From positions 1-57,719 of the IMG/VR virus record IMGVR_UViG_3300029309_000042: DNA of 57,719 nt; one strand, 5' to 3'. Position 1 is the stretch's first letter. Each line of letters starts with the position of its first letter. The notes below the pieces were generated by a model, which was not told the DNA's origin, did no database searches, and saw nothing but the letters and a program-made list of their open reading frames with translations. This DNA comes from a virus. Positions 16,292 to 57,049 of this stretch are shown piece after piece. Both the position numbers and the translations under genes were made by a program.

Positions 16292-16463
16292 GTAACCCTC
16301 CTTTTATCACATAAAAGCGTTGTCTTATTAAGTGTGCCACATTTTCACGTATCTCGCTAGAAGTTAATGGTTCAAAATTTTCATCTTCTACAACCAAAGC
16401 ATCTGTCAACATTTCTACCTCATGGTATAATTGCTGAGGTGTCAACTCATCCGTAGTAGGCAT
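16284..16463 (-). CDS. Small acidic protein between terminase and portal
   Basis: 59 residues from ATG 16463 (MPTTDELTPQQLYHEVEML), helical and acidic. An ATG at 16499 is an alternative, but it would overlap the large terminase gene by 53 bp. It overlaps terminase by 17 bp and portal by 8 bp. A packaging accessory role is only suggested by position. Confidence 0.6.
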   Translation of the reverse strand: MPTTDELTPQQLYHEVEMLTDALVVEDENFEPLTSSEIRENVAHLIRQRFYVIKGGLHG

Positions 16464-17919
16464 TATTTCTAGGTATATATTCTGGCTCATAAACTTCATC
16501 CTCTGGGTGTGTTATAAATCCACCTTCTCTAAATCTTCGTAAAGCTTGGGTTACTGTATCAACAAAGTCATCATGCTCTCCAGCAGGAAAACTCGCACAC
16601 TCTTCAATAACTTCTTCAGCCCAACGAGTATCTGGTGACCATACTAACCCACTTTCTAGTAAAGGTGCAACTGAATTAACACGACTGAATTTATCGTTAC
16701 CTCTACTTGGGCTATAATTTTGTATTGGAATGCCCATCTGCCGTAGTTCATGGGTCAATGGCATACCTGATGCTTTCGCCTCAATCAAGACACATTCTGG
16801 ATCCCAGTATTGATATTCCTCCAAAGCTATTTTGCGTAACTCGGGAAAGTCCCACCTACCACGTCTAGCATCACAAAGAATTATGTTGGGAGGTCCACCC
16901 TCCTCTGGGTAAAAAACACCCCAAGTAGTTATTGCTGAATAGTCCGCTGTTTCTTTTTTACTAAACGCAGTATCGTATGACTGCATAACATAACTCAAAG
17001 GTGGTATATCTTCTTTTTTCCAAACTTGCCACCACTCCCTTTTTAGTATGGCACTTGTTTCACTCGTCGGGTTTTGTTGCCATTGGGCTTCCCACTTACC
17101 AACTGACAATGAAGCCTTAACCTTTAACAGTTCTTCTACTTTCCAAAAGTTAGACCACATTGCCTTACCATCAGGTAAAATAGCTGGGAACTCAATTACT
17201 TCCCACTGGTCAGCTAACACATCTCTAGCTTGTTGCTTAATTAATTTACCAGTTAAATCTATCTCACTCCACCTTGTCATTACGATTACTATAGCTCCTC
17301 CTGGCTGAAGTCTCTGGCGAGGACCTGAGGTGTACCATTCATATGCGTTCTCCAAAGCGGATGGACTTAAAGCATCTTGTTCTGAGTGGGGGTCATCTAT
17401 TATCATCAAATCTGCACCACGACCAGTTATCGCTCCACCAACTCCAGCCGCGAAGTATTCGCCACCTTTGTCTGTTTCCCAACGTCCAGCCGCGAGGCTG
17501 TCTGACCGTAACTTTACATCTGGAAATACTTGGGCGTACTCGGCTCCTGCCATAAGGTTTCTTACTTTTCTACCAAACCTCACGGCTAGTTCACCAGTAT
17601 GAGTTGCTTGTATTATCTTTAACTTTGGGTTACGTCCCATCAACCAACTCGGCAATAAGTAACTTGCAAACTCTGACTTAGTATGTCTCGGGGGCATGTT
17701 TACAATAAGTCGTTTTATTTTGCCAGTAGCCAAGTCGTTAAATTTTTTCGCCATTATCTTATGGTGCTCACCTTCTATAAAATCTTCCCATATAGCACCA
17801 ACATATGTCATAAAATCTTTACGAGCACCCTCAGCAGTCACTAACTGCTTTTGCTTTTCCATAAGTTTTAAGTAATGTCGTAATTTTTCTTCAGGAATGT
17901 TTAAAGGGGCTTGTGTCAT
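16447..17919 (-). CDS. terL: Terminase large subunit
   Basis: 490 residues. ATPase domain: adenine/Walker A region NMPPRHTKSEFA (about 74-85), Walker B LMIIDDPHSE (about 171-180), coupling motif region IVMTRWSEIDL. The RNase H-like nuclease domain starts at SYDTAFSKKETADYSA (about residue 315), with a later acidic residue in CVLIEAKASG and the last in HDDFVDTVTQAL (about 460). It cuts and pumps DNA into the procapsid through the portal. The small subunit gene is 2.9 kb away, unusually far. Confidence 0.92.
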   Translation of the reverse strand: MTQAPLNIPEEKLRHYLKLMEKQKQLVTAEGARKDFMTYVGAIWEDFIEGEHHKIMAKKFNDLATGKIKRLIVNMPPRHTKSEFASYLLPSWLMGRNPKLKIIQATHTGELAVRFGRKVRNLMAGAEYAQVFPDVKLRSDSLAAGRWETDKGGEYFAAGVGGAITGRGADLMIIDDPHSEQDALSPSALENAYEWYTSGPRQRLQPGGAIVIVMTRWSEIDLTGKLIKQQARDVLADQWEVIEFPAILPDGKAMWSNFWKVEELLKVKASLSVGKWEAQWQQNPTSETSAILKREWWQVWKKEDIPPLSYVMQSYDTAFSKKETADYSAITTWGVFYPEEGGPPNIILCDARRGRWDFPELRKIALEEYQYWDPECVLIEAKASGMPLTHELRQMGIPIQNYSPSRGNDKFSRVNSVAPLLESGLVWSPDTRWAEEVIEECASFPAGEHDDFVDTVTQALRRFREGGFITHPEDEVYEPEYIPRNNAYYG

Positions 17920-18055
17920 TTTTTTATAAAAATTTTTCCATGGACAATGAACCTGACTTCATATATACACAAAAGGGGGGTCATGTACAAATAATTTTCT
18001 GATATGCTGTGATTCGTGCGGAACCTGTATGCACTGACGCACATACATGTATATC

Positions 18056-18069: not shown

Positions 18070-18096
18070 GGACCGTTAACATGTTAACTAACTACC

Positions 18097-18133
18097 CAAA
18101 AAAATAGGGCTATGGTTGTAACGCCATAGCCCT
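18097..18133 (-). terminator. Intrinsic terminator of the GA/TC-free gene
   Basis: On the minus strand a 10-bp perfect stem (AGGGCTATGG / CCATAGCCCT, bases 18106-18115 and 18124-18133) with an 8-base loop is followed by A and seven T. It ends the unit of gene 18145-18684. The whole terminator is free of GA and TC dinucleotides. Confidence 0.9.
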
Positions 18134-18144
18134 AGCAGTAGCCC

Positions 18145-18684
18145 CTATTTAAGGGCTACTAGCGTACCAAAGTTAGTACCGTAGGTATGCTTAGCTAAGT
18201 AGCTAAAGCTACCTATAAGCACTGCACCTAGTGCGTTTTGCCTACAACCGTTTTGGCTATTGGCATTTGCTAAAATACTGCTACCACTTAATTGGCTAAT
18301 AGCTTGTATTTGGCTAAGTGGTATTATTTTAGCTTGGCTAGGTACAACCATATTAACAAGCGTTGCGTGTACTTTAGGGCATGTAGTTTTACCCTTAAGC
18401 TTTGTAATAGCTTGTTGGTTAACACCATTTACACAAGCCCATAATATAGCCCCAGCTACGCTATTTTGTGCTTGTTGTGCTTTTAGCATTGGTTGCCACA
18501 AAGTGCCTTTAGCATTAACGCCACCAAACAAAGTGCCATTAGCAGTAAAGGCATTTTTGTTTAACTGTAAGCCCCATTTATGTACGCCACCGTTAGCGTT
18601 AATAAATGCAACCATATTGGCTACTAAAGTGTGTGCGTTTTTTTGTGTTACTGCACTTGTAACATTGTTAAAAGTATTTGGCAT
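18145..18684 (-). CDS. Acid-free 179-residue protein from a GA/TC-free gene
   Basis: The protein has no Asp and no Glu, only one Arg, and many Asn, Ala, Leu, Gln and Lys. The cause is in the DNA: no GA or TC dinucleotide occurs anywhere in the gene, so GAN codons and TCN serines are impossible (all Ser are AGC/AGT). The ribosome binding site is AAGGGGG instead of a GGAG type, again avoiding GA. A segment TLVANMVAFINANGGVHKWGLQL could match GVTVADITAFVQQNAGGNINNVGVRL in the protein at 20320-20787, a weak similarity. The gene has its own promoter (18727-18755) and terminator. No known family; a nuclease, nucleic-acid-binding or inhibitor function is possible. Confidence 0.85.
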   Translation of the reverse strand: MPNTFNNVTSAVTQKNAHTLVANMVAFINANGGVHKWGLQLNKNAFTANGTLFGGVNAKGTLWQPMLKAQQAQNSVAGAILWACVNGVNQQAITKLKGKTTCPKVHATLVNMVVPSQAKIIPLSQIQAISQLSGSSILANANSQNGCRQNALGAVLIGSFSYLAKHTYGTNFGTLVALK

Positions 18685-18726
18685 GTTAGCCCCCTTTTAG
18701 TTAGTTAAGCCGTAGTTGGCAATTAT

Positions 18727-18755
18727 AGAATAGCAAATACAAAATAGGTTGTAAA
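18727..18755 (-). promoter_or_regulatory. Sigma70-type promoter of the GA/TC-free gene
   Basis: TTTACA (18755-18750) and TATTCT (18732-18727) are separated by 17 bases. The block without GA/TC begins at the last base or two of this -10 box, so the predicted transcript from about 18720 lacks both dinucleotides from its first base. The GTGTTTACA context is shared with the promoters at 20832 and 26476. Confidence 0.75.
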
Positions 18756-18896
18756 CACTTAATTTACTTTTTTTACACTTTTTTTATTTTGTGTTGCATT
18801 TTCGCAACAACTACCTTTTTTGATTTGTGATTGTGATTTACATATATGCCACGCTGTCATCATATGATTGAGCACGCGACAATGTGTAACAATCCA

Positions 18897-20319: not shown

Positions 20320-20787
20320 TTATTGTTTTGGGATAACGTATAACTCTACGAAGTTTTTACCCCATGAAGTAGACTTGGCTGACTGCCCACCGTTAAGAGC
20401 GTCAATTAAAGCGTGGAACGAACGTGCCTTAATTGATTTATGGTATTGGTCAACCATAGCTAAGGTAAGAGGATCTTTACCTTGTTGACAATTAATTAAT
20501 TGCCAGACAACTTTGGCACGGAGGGTAGATTTAGCCGTACCATTTTCCTCATATAAGGTTTTTTGTTTTTCCCACGGAAAAGGTAATTTGTCTTTTACGT
20601 TAACACCGTCAACAAGACGAACACCAACATTGTTGATATTACCCCCAGCATTTTGCTGAACAAAAGCAGTGATATCTGCAACGGTAACACCCTCACGGGA
20701 TTTGATACGCTCAGCTGATAAGCTAGTAATACCAGTGAATGTGATAGGCTTTTGAGGTGCCTTTACCTTTAAAGCTGATTTAGCCAT
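20320..20787 (-). CDS. Hypothetical protein from a single-gene unit
   Basis: 155 residues. Basic N-terminus (MAKSALKVKAPQKPITFTGI) followed by a mixed alpha/beta domain. It has its own strong promoter (20832-20860), a leader with a good AAGGAG site and its own terminator, so it is likely made at high level. A segment may be distantly related to the acid-free protein at 18145-18684, but this protein has normal composition and contains all dinucleotides. A host-takeover or anti-defence role is possible. Confidence 0.7.
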   Translation of the reverse strand: MAKSALKVKAPQKPITFTGITSLSAERIKSREGVTVADITAFVQQNAGGNINNVGVRLVDGVNVKDKLPFPWEKQKTLYEENGTAKSTLRAKVVWQLINCQQGKDPLTLAMVDQYHKSIKARSFHALIDALNGGQSAKSTSWGKNFVELYVIPKQ

Positions 20788-23926: not shown

Positions 23927-24138
23927 AAGCCCCTCTTTGCATTTTCTTCAGCTTCAATCATAGCTAACCAATCATCATATTGTTCAGCTAAATCATTTGG
24001 CATATCGTGGTGACTTACTTCTTCCTTAGTAGTATCATTCCATGATATTAAAATACGAGTAGATACAATACGTCTTGGTATTACATCATCCCTTTTGCGA
24101 TAACCGTGTGTTTCGGTTAGTGTTAGTTTTCTTGACAT
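23923..24138 (-). CDS. Hypothetical small protein downstream of a structured leader
   Basis: 71 residues, mostly beta then helix (RKLTLTETHGYRKRDDVIPRRIVSTRILISWND). It starts 42 bases after the structured RNA candidate at 24180-24346 and has an AAGGAA site. That leader may control it. No family recognised. Confidence 0.55.
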   Translation of the reverse strand: MSRKLTLTETHGYRKRDDVIPRRIVSTRILISWNDTTKEEVSHHDMPNDLAEQYDDWLAMIEAEENAKRGL

Positions 24139-24179
24139 TTCTATTCCTTTCTATAATAGATTAATAAAAGTGTGAGTAT

Positions 24180-24346
24180 GGTGTGGATTCGGTTGCTAAC
24201 CTTTTTTAACGAGGGAACGAAACCATCAGCCTATATGAGCTGTTCCAACTCATTACGTTACAAGGCGTCCACATGCAGATGCGTTTCATAACGGAGTAAA
24301 ATCTGAAAAACTCCTCTGGGAGCCACTCTACATGTGCATCCACACC
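24180..24346 (-). ncRNA. Candidate structured RNA (leader or stand-alone)
   Basis: A 9-bp perfect closing helix (GGTGTGGAT / ATCCACACC; 24338-24346 with 24180-24188) encloses 149 bases. One base inside it on the 5' side of the minus-strand RNA lies a second helix (24328-24336 with 24270-24278, 8 Watson-Crick pairs and one G-U on the minus strand; on the plus strand this pair would be C-A). A third hairpin is GAGTTG-GAA-CAGCTC. The 222-bp gap 24139-24360 has no plausible gene. The G-U supports transcription with the genes. No known family could be named. Confidence 0.55.
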
Positions 24347-30439: not shown

Positions 30440-31480
30440 CTAAATCAACTTATCAGAGGGCAAGTTAATAAAGTCATAAACTGGTTTGACTGCTTTAGTA
30501 TAACTATTACCACCACAAGCTTGTTCAATAAAGTTATTTGTCATCGCTGTGGGCTTCGGTAGCTCGTACTTACCCATTCTGTCAGGTAACAACCCATTAC
30601 GGATTGTAGTATTATCGCAACCATTACAAGCACCGAAGTTCCGTTGTCCGTGGTACAGTTTCACTCTAGCTGAGTAAAACGCATCATTGTTCCACAGTTC
30701 ATCCATGCCATTGTAGTCGTGTATATTACCACACTTATAGATGCCAGTCCAGTCATTGCAACATAGTGCTACATTACCGTCCCAACGAACACTTAGTTCA
30801 CGGAAAGGTTTTGCACATCGTTTGTCTTGTTGTTTGTAGTTTAATGGGAAAGCAGATCCAGCATGGTTGCTGACCTGAGCATGTGTACCACTCGTTGCTA
30901 TTGTTAAATCAGCACCGACTACAATTAATTTTTCTTTTGGTTTTCTTCTTTTATGAGGATTACCCTCTGGGTTTTGTGGATACTCTACAACTTTATGAGG
31001 TCCATTGTAATTAGCTTTTATTTTATCAACAATACGGATACGTTCATAATTATCTAAAAACAAAATGTTAAGTCCTGCATCCATAAGATCGTTAACTTTA
31101 TTACTTACATTACCGAGTAAACCACCCCCATTACTTGTCATCATAATAGAGGCTTTTGGAAAATACTGCCTAGTTGTTTGTATGAATACACAATACTCAG
31201 GGTGCATAGTCGGCTCACCGTGCATGGCAAACTCAAAGCGTGGATTCCAACTACTGTTTTTTATGTTCGTTAAAACCCTCAGTAGAGTATTACGTGTCAT
31301 AAATTTATACTCTTTAGAGTTTTTGCCATGCGTCCAACTTGGACCATCAGCACCATTATCTCTTATTTGTTGTATGCCACAAAAAGAACAAGCGAGGTTA
31401 CAACCCTCAGTTAATTCAATTTGTACTGCGTTCGGGGCATCCTGCTTTAAACGCTCGTTGCCATTGCACTCTAACGTCAT
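30440..31480 (-). CDS. Radical SAM enzyme with SPASM/twitch-like C-terminus
   Basis: 346 residues. C27-x3-C31-x2-C34 (CNLACSFC) is the iron-sulfur cluster motif. Additional Cys in KRCAKPFRELSVRWDGNVALCCND and in NFGACNGCDN suggest an auxiliary cluster, as in SPASM/twitch enzymes. It overlaps the upstream glycosyltransferase-like gene by 65 bp. In known T-hypermodification clusters radical SAM enzymes rearrange or methylate the side chain; here that is inferred from context. Confidence 0.85.
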   Translation of the reverse strand: MTLECNGNERLKQDAPNAVQIELTEGCNLACSFCGIQQIRDNGADGPSWTHGKNSKEYKFMTRNTLLRVLTNIKNSSWNPRFEFAMHGEPTMHPEYCVFIQTTRQYFPKASIMMTSNGGGLLGNVSNKVNDLMDAGLNILFLDNYERIRIVDKIKANYNGPHKVVEYPQNPEGNPHKRRKPKEKLIVVGADLTIATSGTHAQVSNHAGSAFPLNYKQQDKRCAKPFRELSVRWDGNVALCCNDWTGIYKCGNIHDYNGMDELWNNDAFYSARVKLYHGQRNFGACNGCDNTTIRNGLLPDRMGKYELPKPTAMTNNFIEQACGGNSYTKAVKPVYDFINLPSDKLI

Positions 31481-32211: not shown

Positions 32212-33114
32212 TTAGTCTCCGTTTACTGGTCCCTTTGGTATGCTTTGCATAACTTCTTTAAATTTACTTCTTGGTTTACCTTGACCAAGCCTTACTCTTT
32301 CGTATTTATCCCACTCACATAAACTATGTTCAATACAACGCATGTCTACATCATCATGATCGATTATATCCCAATCGACATACTTATGTTTTTCAGCTAA
32401 TATATTTTGCATGAACCTATTAGCTCGTTCTTGTGAGTGCATCTTTTTGAGGGGGTAACCATGTATCCTATTTATACCCCTCATTGCTCCTGGTCCTGCG
32501 TTCGCCCAACTAAAACGGTCTGTCGCCTTGTCCAGTACAGATGTGTAGTTGAGGTCGGAAACGACTTCGTAAGACATAAAGCCCCCTCCTCCCCACCCTT
32601 TATAGGCAGACAACGCATTGTGTACGGCTTGTAACGACTGAGTCTCGGACGCAAGTTTTCCAAGCGAGACTTGACTCTGGTAAATCGGTACAAGGAACTC
32701 ATATACAACAACCTCCGCTTTTGGTTTTTTAATACCTTGATTAGTTATTATATACGCTCCAGTGAATGTTTTTAAACCATGTTTAATTCTATTTGAAATT
32801 AAATTTACAGTATGCTCAGGATCCCACTCTAATGCGTCAGCATGTACCCAACCATGTACTTCAGCGAACTCCATAGTGCCTACCATTCTAAACAAGCAAC
32901 AGTTGAATATTATTTCACCAAAGGGGCGATTGTTGTGTGGGTCAGTCCATGCTTTTCGCATATAGACTGTGGTACGGTCGTTTTCCCTAAATGGGTTTGT
33001 AAATTTATATTCACGCAAAATAGGGTCTTCAGTCCATGGTGGACTGTCGCCCCTGACTCTAGCTAAATAAATGGCATGACGTTCATTTATCCAGTTGTAA
33101 AAATTTTCTATCAT
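32212..33114 (-). CDS. alpha-Glutamyl/putrescinyl-thymine pyrophosphorylase-like (aGPT-Pplase)
   Basis: 300 residues. The signature ARVRGDSPPWTEDPILREYKFTNPFRENDRTT (about 18-49) is that of the aGPT-Pplase family, which displaces pyrophosphate from activated 5-hydroxymethyl-dU in DNA by an amino acid or amine. A later conserved part is FMSYEVVSDLNYT and PGAMRGINRIHG. The length is normal. Start: ATG 33114 with AAGGAGG. No hmU DNA kinase, which would supply the pyrophosphate-bearing base, is visible nearby. Confidence 0.85.
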   Translation of the reverse strand: MIENFYNWINERHAIYLARVRGDSPPWTEDPILREYKFTNPFRENDRTTVYMRKAWTDPHNNRPFGEIIFNCCLFRMVGTMEFAEVHGWVHADALEWDPEHTVNLISNRIKHGLKTFTGAYIITNQGIKKPKAEVVVYEFLVPIYQSQVSLGKLASETQSLQAVHNALSAYKGWGGGGFMSYEVVSDLNYTSVLDKATDRFSWANAGPGAMRGINRIHGYPLKKMHSQERANRFMQNILAEKHKYVDWDIIDHDDVDMRCIEHSLCEWDKYERVRLGQGKPRSKFKEVMQSIPKGPVNGD

Positions 33115-36830: not shown

Positions 36831-38347
36831 TATATTACATCTTTTGGTTTAGGTATATCTGGTAACTTCATAGGTTCATTATCAGTTTCAAAGTACCCTT
36901 GAGGTAATGACCACACATGTATTCCTTTGCCTTTCACTCGCCAAAACATCTTATCCGCTTCTAAGTTCTGTAATCGCAAAGTAATCTTTGATGAGGAGTA
37001 ATGATTGAAGTCGTTTACTGATAAATGCTTTTTTATATCCTTGACTTGAAAATAAACTAATCCATCCATCCATACTGCGACTCCTTGTAATATATCATCA
37101 CGTTCAACACCCCTTGCTCTTTCGCTACAAAAAGAGTGCAATAAATCTTCAAACTCGCCTTTTATTGTAGCATCAGGTGGTACTTCCACAATAGTTAAAC
37201 TGTCCAATAATAATTGTATTCTTGTCTGCCAAGCATTTTGACTCACTGTTCTTGGTAACTTATTTATCTGTGATACACAATCTTTTTGAAACCTAGTTTG
37301 TGAAACTAAACCATCTGTGCTTAATTCTAACCTTTGTCCATCCACATTAAGTATCCATATGGGTGGGTCACCATCTATTTTTGTAAGTGCTGACATACTA
37401 TTTTGTACACCGTTTGGTCCAACACCATGTTTTCTTGTGACACATACTTCTTTATTACAATACGGTTTGATAGGTTGGTCTTCACATTTATAAAAGTAAT
37501 CTTTCCGTTGCAACTGTTTGATTACTGCTCCAACTTCAGCATGTGAAAGTGATGGTTTTAAGTAATCAAGGTTATACTTTTGTATCAAAGCTTCCCAGTT
37601 ATCAGCATCAAACATTCTTGCATAAACACCTAAATTAAATAAAGCATTATTCCTTGAACCCTCACCAAAGCCCATACTACATAAATGTTGAAGGCATGGT
37701 GGTCCATCGGGTAAGTAACTGTCTTGACTAGCATTTATCTTATAATCAGAAAACTGTTGCTTAGTGATTTTATATTTACTGGCTTTTGCAACAAAATCCT
37801 GAGGCGAGAGTATCTCTAATGTTTTTAAATCATACACCGACCTTGTACTCATTTTACCTTTAAAGTAAGGCATGTTCAAACCGTTTCCAGTATCGCCCCT
37901 TTCTACTAATATTTCAGCTTGTTTGGGAAACACTTCACCTTCTGCTTGACCCAAGCCTGATGCTATCTCTGCAAGTTTATTTTTTATTGTTGAAGCTTTT
38001 ATTGGTTCTTTAAAAAAGAAATATATATGTGCTCCACCTGATTTACTTCTTGCTACCCAACCAACTATTCTTTCTTTGCGTAATCTCTCTACTAAGTTTT
38101 TGTGGTCAACTTGATAGTTGTCAACATCTATTGCTCCCCACATACAAGTGTTATCATCCATGATGGGTATAACACCAAGACCTTGTTTGCCCTTTAAGTG
38201 ATCAATCCAATGTTGTGTCTCTAACGGCTTTTTAATAATTTTATAGACACCAGTTTTTTTCCCTACCCCATTATCATCTAGATCGACAACTCCGTAGGCT
38301 CTTTTATTGCCTTCAAATAAATTTAAAAACTGTTCTGCTAACTCCAT
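36830..38347 (-). CDS. Archaeo-eukaryotic primase (TOTE-associated type)
   Basis: 505 residues from ATG 38347 (AAGGAG upstream). CMWGAIDVDNYQV holds the DxD catalytic motif of AEP primases; RSKSGGAHIYFFF is the sxH-type nucleotide-binding motif; VFPKQAEI the third region. The rest contains a helical and PriCT-like segment and a C-terminal winged-helix-like part. This is an unusual primase choice for a phage, which normally has a DnaG/TOPRIM type. An inverted repeat (38363-38400) lies in its leader. Confidence 0.85.
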   Translation of the reverse strand: MELAEQFLNLFEGNKRAYGVVDLDDNGVGKKTGVYKIIKKPLETQHWIDHLKGKQGLGVIPIMDDNTCMWGAIDVDNYQVDHKNLVERLRKERIVGWVARSKSGGAHIYFFFKEPIKASTIKNKLAEIASGLGQAEGEVFPKQAEILVERGDTGNGLNMPYFKGKMSTRSVYDLKTLEILSPQDFVAKASKYKITKQQFSDYKINASQDSYLPDGPPCLQHLCSMGFGEGSRNNALFNLGVYARMFDADNWEALIQKYNLDYLKPSLSHAEVGAVIKQLQRKDYFYKCEDQPIKPYCNKEVCVTRKHGVGPNGVQNSMSALTKIDGDPPIWILNVDGQRLELSTDGLVSQTRFQKDCVSQINKLPRTVSQNAWQTRIQLLLDSLTIVEVPPDATIKGEFEDLLHSFCSERARGVERDDILQGVAVWMDGLVYFQVKDIKKHLSVNDFNHYSSSKITLRLQNLEADKMFWRVKGKGIHVWSLPQGYFETDNEPMKLPDIPKPKDVI

Positions 38348-38362
38348 AACTTCTCCTTTATG

Positions 38363-38400
38363 AAGCCCTAGCAAATGCAAACAAGGAGGTGCTAGGGCTT
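38363..38400. promoter_or_regulatory. 11-bp inverted repeat with anti-Shine-Dalgarno loop
   Basis: AAGCCCTAGCA (38363-38373) and TGCTAGGGCTT (38390-38400) form a perfect stem in the leader of the primase gene. The 16-base loop on the minus strand contains CCTCCTT, complementary to the AAGGAG site that lies just downstream. No T run follows. It could regulate primase translation or stop part of the SSB transcripts. Confidence 0.55.
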
Positions 38401-38436
38401 CTACCTAATAATAAACAACAAAATTACTAGGTAATC

Positions 38437-39267
38437 TTAGAAAGGATCGTCGTCAGCTTCTACCTTAGCTTTTGGTGCATCTTTAATTGGTGGTAAGTCA
38501 GTAGGTGCTTGGTCTGGCACTACCTCTTTTACATCAACCTCTCCAGCTTCTACTGATTTTGCAAACGCTACACAGTTTTCAAAAATAGCTTTGTGTAAGT
38601 CATCTGATAAATCTAACTGTCTAACTCTGTTGATAACCCAACCGTACCATTTACCTTTATCATTTTGCTCAGGCACAGTTGACAAGTTGTACATTTGGGA
38701 CATCATTGGTAGAGTGTATGGACCATTCTTACCCATAGCCGTCATAGCGTTCATTTGGGATAGCCACCTTCTTGACTTTTTAAGTTGTGTGCTAGACATT
38801 GTTATTAAACATCTGCTATATTGCTCACCCTCTAACAACATAACGAAGTGTTGAGCCGTGTTGGTAAGTAGATTACCATTTGGCAATACCTCATCATTGT
38901 TATCGTTGCGTGTAGCAGTTGCTACTATTGGGTCATCAGGCAAGTAACTGCCTACATACCCACCACCCTGATCTCTTGGTTTCCACTCAACAAACCTTCT
39001 ATTGTAATAACAAGGCACGACTGTAATACCTTTATCACTTGCACCAGAGTAAACTGCATTTGCTACTGTGTTATATATCATTCCTGCCTTTGCACCTGAA
39101 ACATATGCACCTTCGTTTTCATCTACTTGTGGGCTTTGTGCTCCAAGTATTCTTAAAAAAGGTATTGACATATCTTGTGTTGTTGTCTCAGCAAAACCAA
39201 GACCAGACATTTCTTCAAATGAAGCGTTGACAAGTGCTCCTTCTTGTTTTTTGACTACTTCAGCCAT
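38437..39267 (-). CDS. Single-stranded DNA-binding protein (gp2.5-like)
   Basis: 276 residues. The N-terminus MAEVVKKQEGALVNASFEEM, a beta-rich OB-like core (MSIPFLRILGAQSP, GITVVPCYYNRRFVEWKPRDQGGGYVG), and an acidic, phenylalanine-ended C-terminus (KVEADDDPF) fit phage SSB proteins, in which the tail binds polymerase and helicase. It lies between the primase and a coiled-coil protein in the replication block. Confidence 0.8.
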   Translation of the reverse strand: MAEVVKKQEGALVNASFEEMSGLGFAETTTQDMSIPFLRILGAQSPQVDENEGAYVSGAKAGMIYNTVANAVYSGASDKGITVVPCYYNRRFVEWKPRDQGGGYVGSYLPDDPIVATATRNDNNDEVLPNGNLLTNTAQHFVMLLEGEQYSRCLITMSSTQLKKSRRWLSQMNAMTAMGKNGPYTLPMMSQMYNLSTVPEQNDKGKWYGWVINRVRQLDLSDDLHKAIFENCVAFAKSVEAGEVDVKEVVPDQAPTDLPPIKDAPKAKVEADDDPF

Positions 39268-56032: not shown

Positions 56033-57049
56033 CTATTGAAACTTATACCTTATAATAACTATACCAGAGCCACCACTACCAGAACTTAGACCATCTGGCG
56101 TACTTGCCGCTCCACCTCCTCCACCTCCAGTGTTACCACTACCATTGCTTCTGTTAGCACCTCCACCACCAGAGCCTCCAGAACCTCCACGAGGTGCTGA
56201 ATCATTACCACCTCCACCACCTCCAGCTCTTGTTGTAGATGAACCATTTATAGAAGTAGCTGTTCCATTTCCACCATTTCCACCTGATGATCCGCTTGGA
56301 CTTGAAGCATTGCTTCCAGCGGCTCCAGCTCCTCCACCGCCTCCACCAGCATCTCTTGTTGATGGAGTGCTTGGTGGTGATGAAGGTGGTCTAGCATTAC
56401 CACCACTATTTCCTTGTCCTGAAGTACCAGAGCCACCAGAAGTGCCTTCTCGACCTCCACCGCCTCCACCCGATCCTCCAGGTCCGCCAGTATTTCTATC
56501 ACCTGCTCCGCCACCACCTCCACCGAAGCCTCCACCAGTAGAAGTTATGGAATCAAAAACAGAGTTACCACCACTACCACCATTACCAGCACTAGTTTGA
56601 TTACTGCCTCCACCCCCAACAGTTATTGGGTAAGCTTGTGCTGAAACTGGGTGACCTCCAGTTGCAGGATTAGGAAAGGATACTCGGTGACCACCAGCAC
56701 CTCCGCCACCACCACCTTGACCTCCGCCACCACCAGCACCTCCGCCAACGACTAAAAAATCAACAGTGTTACTTCCAGCAGAATTACCACCATTCGAAAC
56801 TGTAAAAGTTCCTGAACTTGTAAAGGTATGTATTTTAAAATCTCCAGATGTGGTAATACTCCCACCACTTGCAGATACAAACTGTGCGTTACTTTTACCT
56901 TGCAAATCAGACATTGCAATAGCACCAGAGGGTTGTCCTGCTAATGTTCTAACAGCAGTTGCTCCCATATTTATTTGAGTTGATGAAGGAGATATACTTA
57001 ATTCTGTATTGACTTGAGAAAGTGATATGGCTCCAGTAGGTAACGTCAT
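56033..57049 (-). CDS. Glycine-rich tail fibre / adhesin
   Basis: 338 residues. The N-terminus MTLPTGAISLSQVNTELSIS plus LSDLQGKSN is a known fibre-anchoring cap. Residues ~95-320 are glycine-rich (GGGGG runs), which likely fold as packed polyglycine type II helices as in phage S16 gp38-like adhesins. The end SGIVIIRYKFQ is common. Determines receptor binding, adjacent to another fibre gene. Confidence 0.85.
   Translation of the reverse strand: MTLPTGAISLSQVNTELSISPSSTQINMGATAVRTLAGQPSGAIAMSDLQGKSNAQFVSASGGSITTSGDFKIHTFTSSGTFTVSNGGNSAGSNTVDFLVVGGGAGGGGGQGGGGGGAGGHRVSFPNPATGGHPVSAQAYPITVGGGGSNQTSAGNGGSGGNSVFDSITSTGGGFGGGGGGAGDRNTGGPGGSGGGGGGREGTSGGSGTSGQGNSGGNARPPSSPPSTPSTRDAGGGGGGAGAAGSNASSPSGSSGGNGGNGTATSINGSSTTRAGGGGGGNDSAPRGGSGGSGGGGANRSNGSGNTGGGGGGAASTPDGLSSGSGGSGIVIIRYKFQ

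Follow-up and report, generated by a model that had tools for sequence, protein, structure and literature searches.

Why should one small phage gene, together with its promoter and terminator, be written almost without the dinucleotides GA and TC? This question is raised by a 57,719-nucleotide stretch of viral DNA (IMG/VR record IMGVR_UViG_3300029309_000042, positions 1 to 57,719, hereafter the window). The original prediction was that a transcription unit at 18073-18727 contains no GA or TC on either strand, that this symmetric loss reflects avoidance of a duplex-level signal, either a nuclease or a base modification placed in this context, and, as one idea, that T in TC is the modified context and this gene must stay unmodified. 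We first recounted the sequence, and the observation is correct. There is no GA or TC between the GA at 18071 and the GA at 18728, and the other 14 dinucleotides all occur. The density of GA plus TC in the window is 0.100 per base, so that about 66 were expected in the block, and at that density the probability of 655 empty positions is of the order of 10^-30. The gap is 657 bases, whereas the next longest (74) is the adjoining stretch 18728-18802 and the third is 67, so that no similar gap exists elsewhere in this genome; no other dinucleotide pair except the rare CG has a gap above 208. A segment scan placed the depleted stretch at 18072-18802 with a single GA at 18728, and so it also covers the promoter. 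A different kind of compositional gap, a 442-base stretch at 56084-56526 poor in AA on the plus strand (8 against 39 expected), lies inside a predicted structural gene and is probably due to amino-acid composition.

The block holds a single gene on the minus strand, 18145-18684, coding for a protein of 179 amino acids with no Asp or Glu, which we call B. It lies directly upstream of the gene for the large terminase subunit, TerL (16447-17919, minus strand). Its inferred promoter is sigma-70-like, with a -35 hexamer TTTACA at 18750-18755, which avoids the GA of TTGACA, and, 17 bp away, a -10 hexamer TATTCT at 18727-18732, which holds the one TC of the promoter; an alternative TATAAT at 18722-18727 overlaps it (all on the minus strand). 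A GGGGG Shine-Dalgarno-like stretch replaces a GA-containing one. The terminator hairpin GGGCTATGGCGTTACAACCATAGCCC (18107-18132, minus strand), followed by a T run, is free of GA and TC and is conserved downstream of homologues. At the 3' edge of the block, at 18075-18088, lies a palindrome, GTTAACATGTTAAC, conserved in close homologues; it, or a close form of it, is also found upstream of B in some relatives (labelled L004, L012 and L013). Because TGA and TCA are absent, a spurious antisense frame of 146 amino acids is open on the plus strand at 18260-18700, and homologous artefacts appear in two related records (G036 and G007). Searches for Rfam RNAs and tRNAs found none in the window.

Could the composition of the protein, or a mutational process, account for the gap? 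With the protein held fixed and synonymous codons drawn from phage usage, the probability of a coding sequence without GA or TC is 10^-19.3, with 30.6 expected, and the 5' leader, intergenic DNA and terminator are free as well. Avoidance of acidic residues at the protein level only is thus rejected, since TC, NGA codons and untranslated DNA are depleted too. Erasure by a TC-specific cytosine deaminase would remove exactly these two steps by converting TC to TT and GA to AA, but AA plus TT is not raised in the block (141 of 654 steps, 0.216, as in the genome) while GC doubles. Furthermore, the limits of depletion follow promoter and terminator in dozens of diverged genes and the residual GA sits at Asp/Glu codons, a pattern of selection, so that we consider this or any other mutational erasure very improbable.

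We next asked what kind of phage carries this cassette. TerL is 59-64% identical to those of HTVC023P, HTVC027P, 023Pt_psg01 and DSL-LC04, and PolA is 51-56% identical, so this is a relative of the HTVC023P-type pelagiphages. Unlike those four, it carries a thymidylate-synthase (TS) homologue (PF00303; 29367-30362), a presumed dUMP hydroxymethylase that could make 5hm-dUMP and is 45% identical to gp58 of Pseudomonas phage M6, and a PF18723 protein (32212-33114; E 3.5e-49), annotated in Pfam as 5-hmdU DNA kinase, helical domain, and also as aGPT-PPlase1, which is 32% identical to M6 gp55. Two further members of the cluster are a radical SAM/SPASM protein (30440-31480) and a TAGT glycosyltransferase (PF20691; 31416-32210); all four genes are on the minus strand. 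A tblastn search with the P-loop kinase M6 gp54 gave no match in the window or related records, and the only GKT P-loop is in the UvrD-like helicase. TS and aG/PT-PPlase1 have been reported in clades V, VIII and IX of this pelagiphage lineage (PMC9599517), where we found no mention of a GA/TC-free gene in the parts consulted; HTVC023P, HTVC027P and psg01 themselves lack pathway and block.

If the block is linked to this pathway, it should be conserved with it. Fifteen close homologues of B (74-100% identity) were found in IMG/VR, of which 14 have no GA or TC in the gene and one has three TC. An alignment-based search gave 55 loci down to 38% identity, most again with none. TS and PF18723 were found in 11 of 26 of these records, the same 11 for both; from contig coordinates we infer that the other 15 end before the region where these genes would lie. 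We then performed the converse test, searching IMG/VR for the PF18723 protein, fetching 27 long records, four of them already known to carry B, and scanning each for depleted segments of every dinucleotide. PF18723 is present in every long record fetched. Three of the 27 (G031, G040 and G053) lack the terminase region. Counting the window, 25 records are informative and 22 of them have one GA/TC block, next to TerL wherever TerL is in the record, although the B proteins diverge strongly: in many of these the gene escapes a profile of the closer homologues, yet an iterative profile joins them. The four relatives without the pathway have neither block nor member of the protein family. The block is found with and without TAGT and radical SAM, which about half the block-bearing phages lack, so that it tracks the shared steps. 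Over whole genomes, GA/TC is mildly low in pathway phages (0.79-0.94 of expectation against 0.92-1.00 in the four relatives), in line with a mild general cost, but the relatives are few.

There are exceptions to this association. Homologues with near-normal content exist in 3 of the 25 genomes (G035, G041 and G052), although even there B has fewer coding GA than expected (22 of 42, 13 of 41 and 16 of 44, respectively). A search of these three for another depleted dinucleotide or longer motif gave nothing of comparable strength, only GA-containing words, and in a tree of the PF18723 proteins they do not form one clade. PF18723 phages outside this group (M6, PaMx11, SH-Ab 15599, RHph_I65, Sonora, Epa5 and PrincePhergus; up to 50 kb of each scanned) show no comparable GA/TC block. 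TG/CA- or TC-free genes of comparable score were likewise not found in the first six; PrincePhergus has a 240-bp stretch at 24012-24251 poor in CA/TG (3 against 34 expected, score 25.7), TG being the other published context of modified T.

In 24 of the 25 records the profile finds two paralogues, B and a second member, A, with ordinary GA/TC content. In the window A is at 20320-20787 on the minus strand and codes for 155 amino acids, with 12 GA and 28 TC. A and B of one phage share 23-65% identity. In the pairs compared, strongly depleted B proteins have 0-3 acidic residues where A has 11-17, and also fewer Lys/Arg (10-16 against 17-27), so B stays net positive. A tree of A and B has many long branches, leaving room for one duplication or several. 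In G055 the block (record positions 38185-39116; 10 GA/TC against 97 expected), at the same place before TerL, holds a 221-amino-acid gene outside the family while A is normal, so the constraint may belong to the position or role rather than to the protein. Neither B nor A matched any described family or fold in searches of Pfam, PHROGs and PDB sequences; AlphaFold2 models are confident (mean pLDDT 89.2 for B and 85.4 for A), and Foldseek found no match to them among PDB or BFVD structures. B is a small basic protein of a new family, and any role given to it is a guess.

Which molecule, DNA or RNA, carries the constraint? Over 39 strictly depleted B genes, GA and TC each occur at 0.0008 per base inside the gene, against roughly 0.04-0.05 in distant flanks. 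Depletion begins about 120 bases before the start codon and ends 60-80 bases after the stop. The inferred -35 box sits mostly at -70 to -85, so untranscribed DNA upstream of it is depleted too, which argues for a DNA-level cause covering promoter footprint, transcript and terminator. Of 44 inferred -35 boxes 28 are TTTACA and none is the GA-containing consensus TTGACA, and 7 of 44 B genes have a GA-containing Shine-Dalgarno against 12 of 26 other window genes. An RNA-level avoidance, in which an RNase cuts GA (and UC) in mRNA and the B transcript is immune, would fit the end of depletion at the terminator and the strict avoidance of coding GA described below. However, it does not account for the depleted DNA upstream of the inferred start site, it needs a second enzyme for UC, and it leaves the link to the 5hmdU pathway unexplained, so that we regard it as very unlikely.

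The loss is symmetric in this genome but not in the family. Of 44 B genes, not all of them independent, 28 have neither step. Of the 21 remaining coding-strand GA, 20 are Asp/Glu codons, whereas the 95 remaining coding-strand TC, most of which synonymous codons could avoid, are concentrated in a few lineages (for example 30 in L027 and 17 in G020); in several lineages coding-strand TC relaxes while coding-strand GA stays at 0-3. No longer sequence context of the residual GA/TC was apparent. Coding GA, which is TC in the template strand, is thus the step most strongly avoided, and this points to the template strand and to transcription rather than to a duplex nuclease. For the same reason we think it unlikely that a host modification-dependent nuclease cuts at modified TC and that the cassette survives as an uncut fragment encoding an inhibitor of that defence: the sparing of the whole promoter-gene-terminator unit and the small basic early-type protein without a recognised fold would suit this idea, but cleavage of duplex DNA should not depend on which strand is the template.

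Published work offers a possible mechanism. Hypermodified T in M6, Salmonella phage ViI and Delftia phage phiW-14 lies in TG or TC (PMC6449724, PMC7653180), and treatment with 5hmdU DNA kinase protects sites with TG or TC. 5hmU itself raises transcription by E. coli RNA polymerase, while phosphorylation of 5hmU by kinase treatment lowers it to 10% of the 5hmU template. Bulky modifications block bacterial RNA polymerase, and with T7 RNA polymerase bulky or charged modified U inhibits from the template strand and is tolerated in the other. Put together, a TC-directed hypermodification would silence ordinary genes for naive host RNA polymerase, and a TC-free cassette would stay readable. No T7-type RNA polymerase was detected in 17 of these phages, in a search whose control was also silent.

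The position of B may also matter. Contigs from several assemblies end, and one begins, at the equivalent of 18025-18042, about 107-125 bp after the B stop codon and between B and TerL, with end classes about 13 bases apart (contigs L022, L007, L042, L043, L037, L060 and L256). This suggests a cos site with B at one end of virion DNA, although the evidence is suggestive only. The same exemption could operate at a different time, B being the gene that stays readable late, after progeny DNA has been hypermodified and the other genes fall silent, for example as a packaging or lysis-timing factor. The same sequence evidence and the location beside the terminase gene and the putative cos site are compatible with this; however, it does not explain how the first genes are read from modified virion DNA, and the sigma-70-like promoter is as expected of a gene open to unaltered host RNA polymerase. 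We therefore consider the late alternative unlikely, although the least so of the rival readings.

The explanation that we favour, with moderate confidence, is the following. The phage would make 5-hydroxymethyl-dU DNA and then hypermodify T in 5'-TC-3' steps on both strands, so that an ordinary gene would carry a bulky T about every ten base pairs. Host RNA polymerase would read such DNA poorly, above all when the modified T is in the template strand. One cassette, consisting of promoter, gene B and terminator, is written without TC on either strand, could not be hypermodified, and would be the gene that naive host polymerase can read from incoming virion DNA. Its product would then be needed before the rest of the genome, including A, is expressed, since, if the modification blocks transcription, the one readable gene should supply what the others need; the simplest idea is that B starts and A sustains the same function. 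Our analysis establishes the exact block, its conservation, its extent from promoter to terminator, its co-occurrence with the 5hmdU pathway, the strand asymmetry and the paralogue, whereas the presence of a modified T, its restriction to TC, the block of the host polymerase, the timing and the activity of B are inferences. Against this view, M6-type PF18723 phages infect without such a block, three pathway phages show only partial, coding-GA depletion, the absence of an M6-type P-loop kinase homologue leaves the enzyme that would choose TC unidentified, and genes other than B must be transcribed somehow. The interpretation in the original prediction is thus partly supported: modified T in TC, with this gene exempt, is the reading best supported here, but the avoidance points to the template strand rather than to the duplex, and the protected unit is promoter, gene and terminator, not only a transcript.

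How does this compare with described systems? The thymidine hypermodification phages M6, ViI and phiW-14 share the TS homologue and PF18723 protein (as M6 gp58 and gp55 homologues) and provide the published TG/TC context, but no GA/TC- or TG/CA-free gene of comparable strength was found in the M6, PaMx11, Sonora and Epa5 stretches scanned. Avoidance of restriction sites in phage genomes is likewise composition shaped by an enzyme that reads short DNA words, but here a two-base word is removed from one transcription unit only and in step with the phage's own presumed modification pathway. First-entering early genes such as T7 0.3 (Ocr) are small and read by host RNA polymerase before the rest of the genome, as proposed for B; Ocr, however, is an acidic DNA mimic, while B is basic. 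A search of open-licence papers, limited as such a search is, found no precedent.

Phages with hypermodified DNA pose a puzzle, namely how the host polymerase starts on DNA full of bulky bases. In this group of marine viruses, which probably modify T in their DNA, a sequence signature would mark one gene as exempt; it predicts the modified dinucleotide (TC), the strand that matters and the first gene expressed, and it would make a chemical modification readable from sequence alone in uncultured phages. B may also be a tool for transcribing modified DNA. A further possibility, more tentative than the exemption itself, is that the exempt unit encodes an ignition protein that lets host RNA polymerase read hypermodified DNA, an activity that A then sustains; a chemical mark on virion DNA would thus decide which single gene can be read first.
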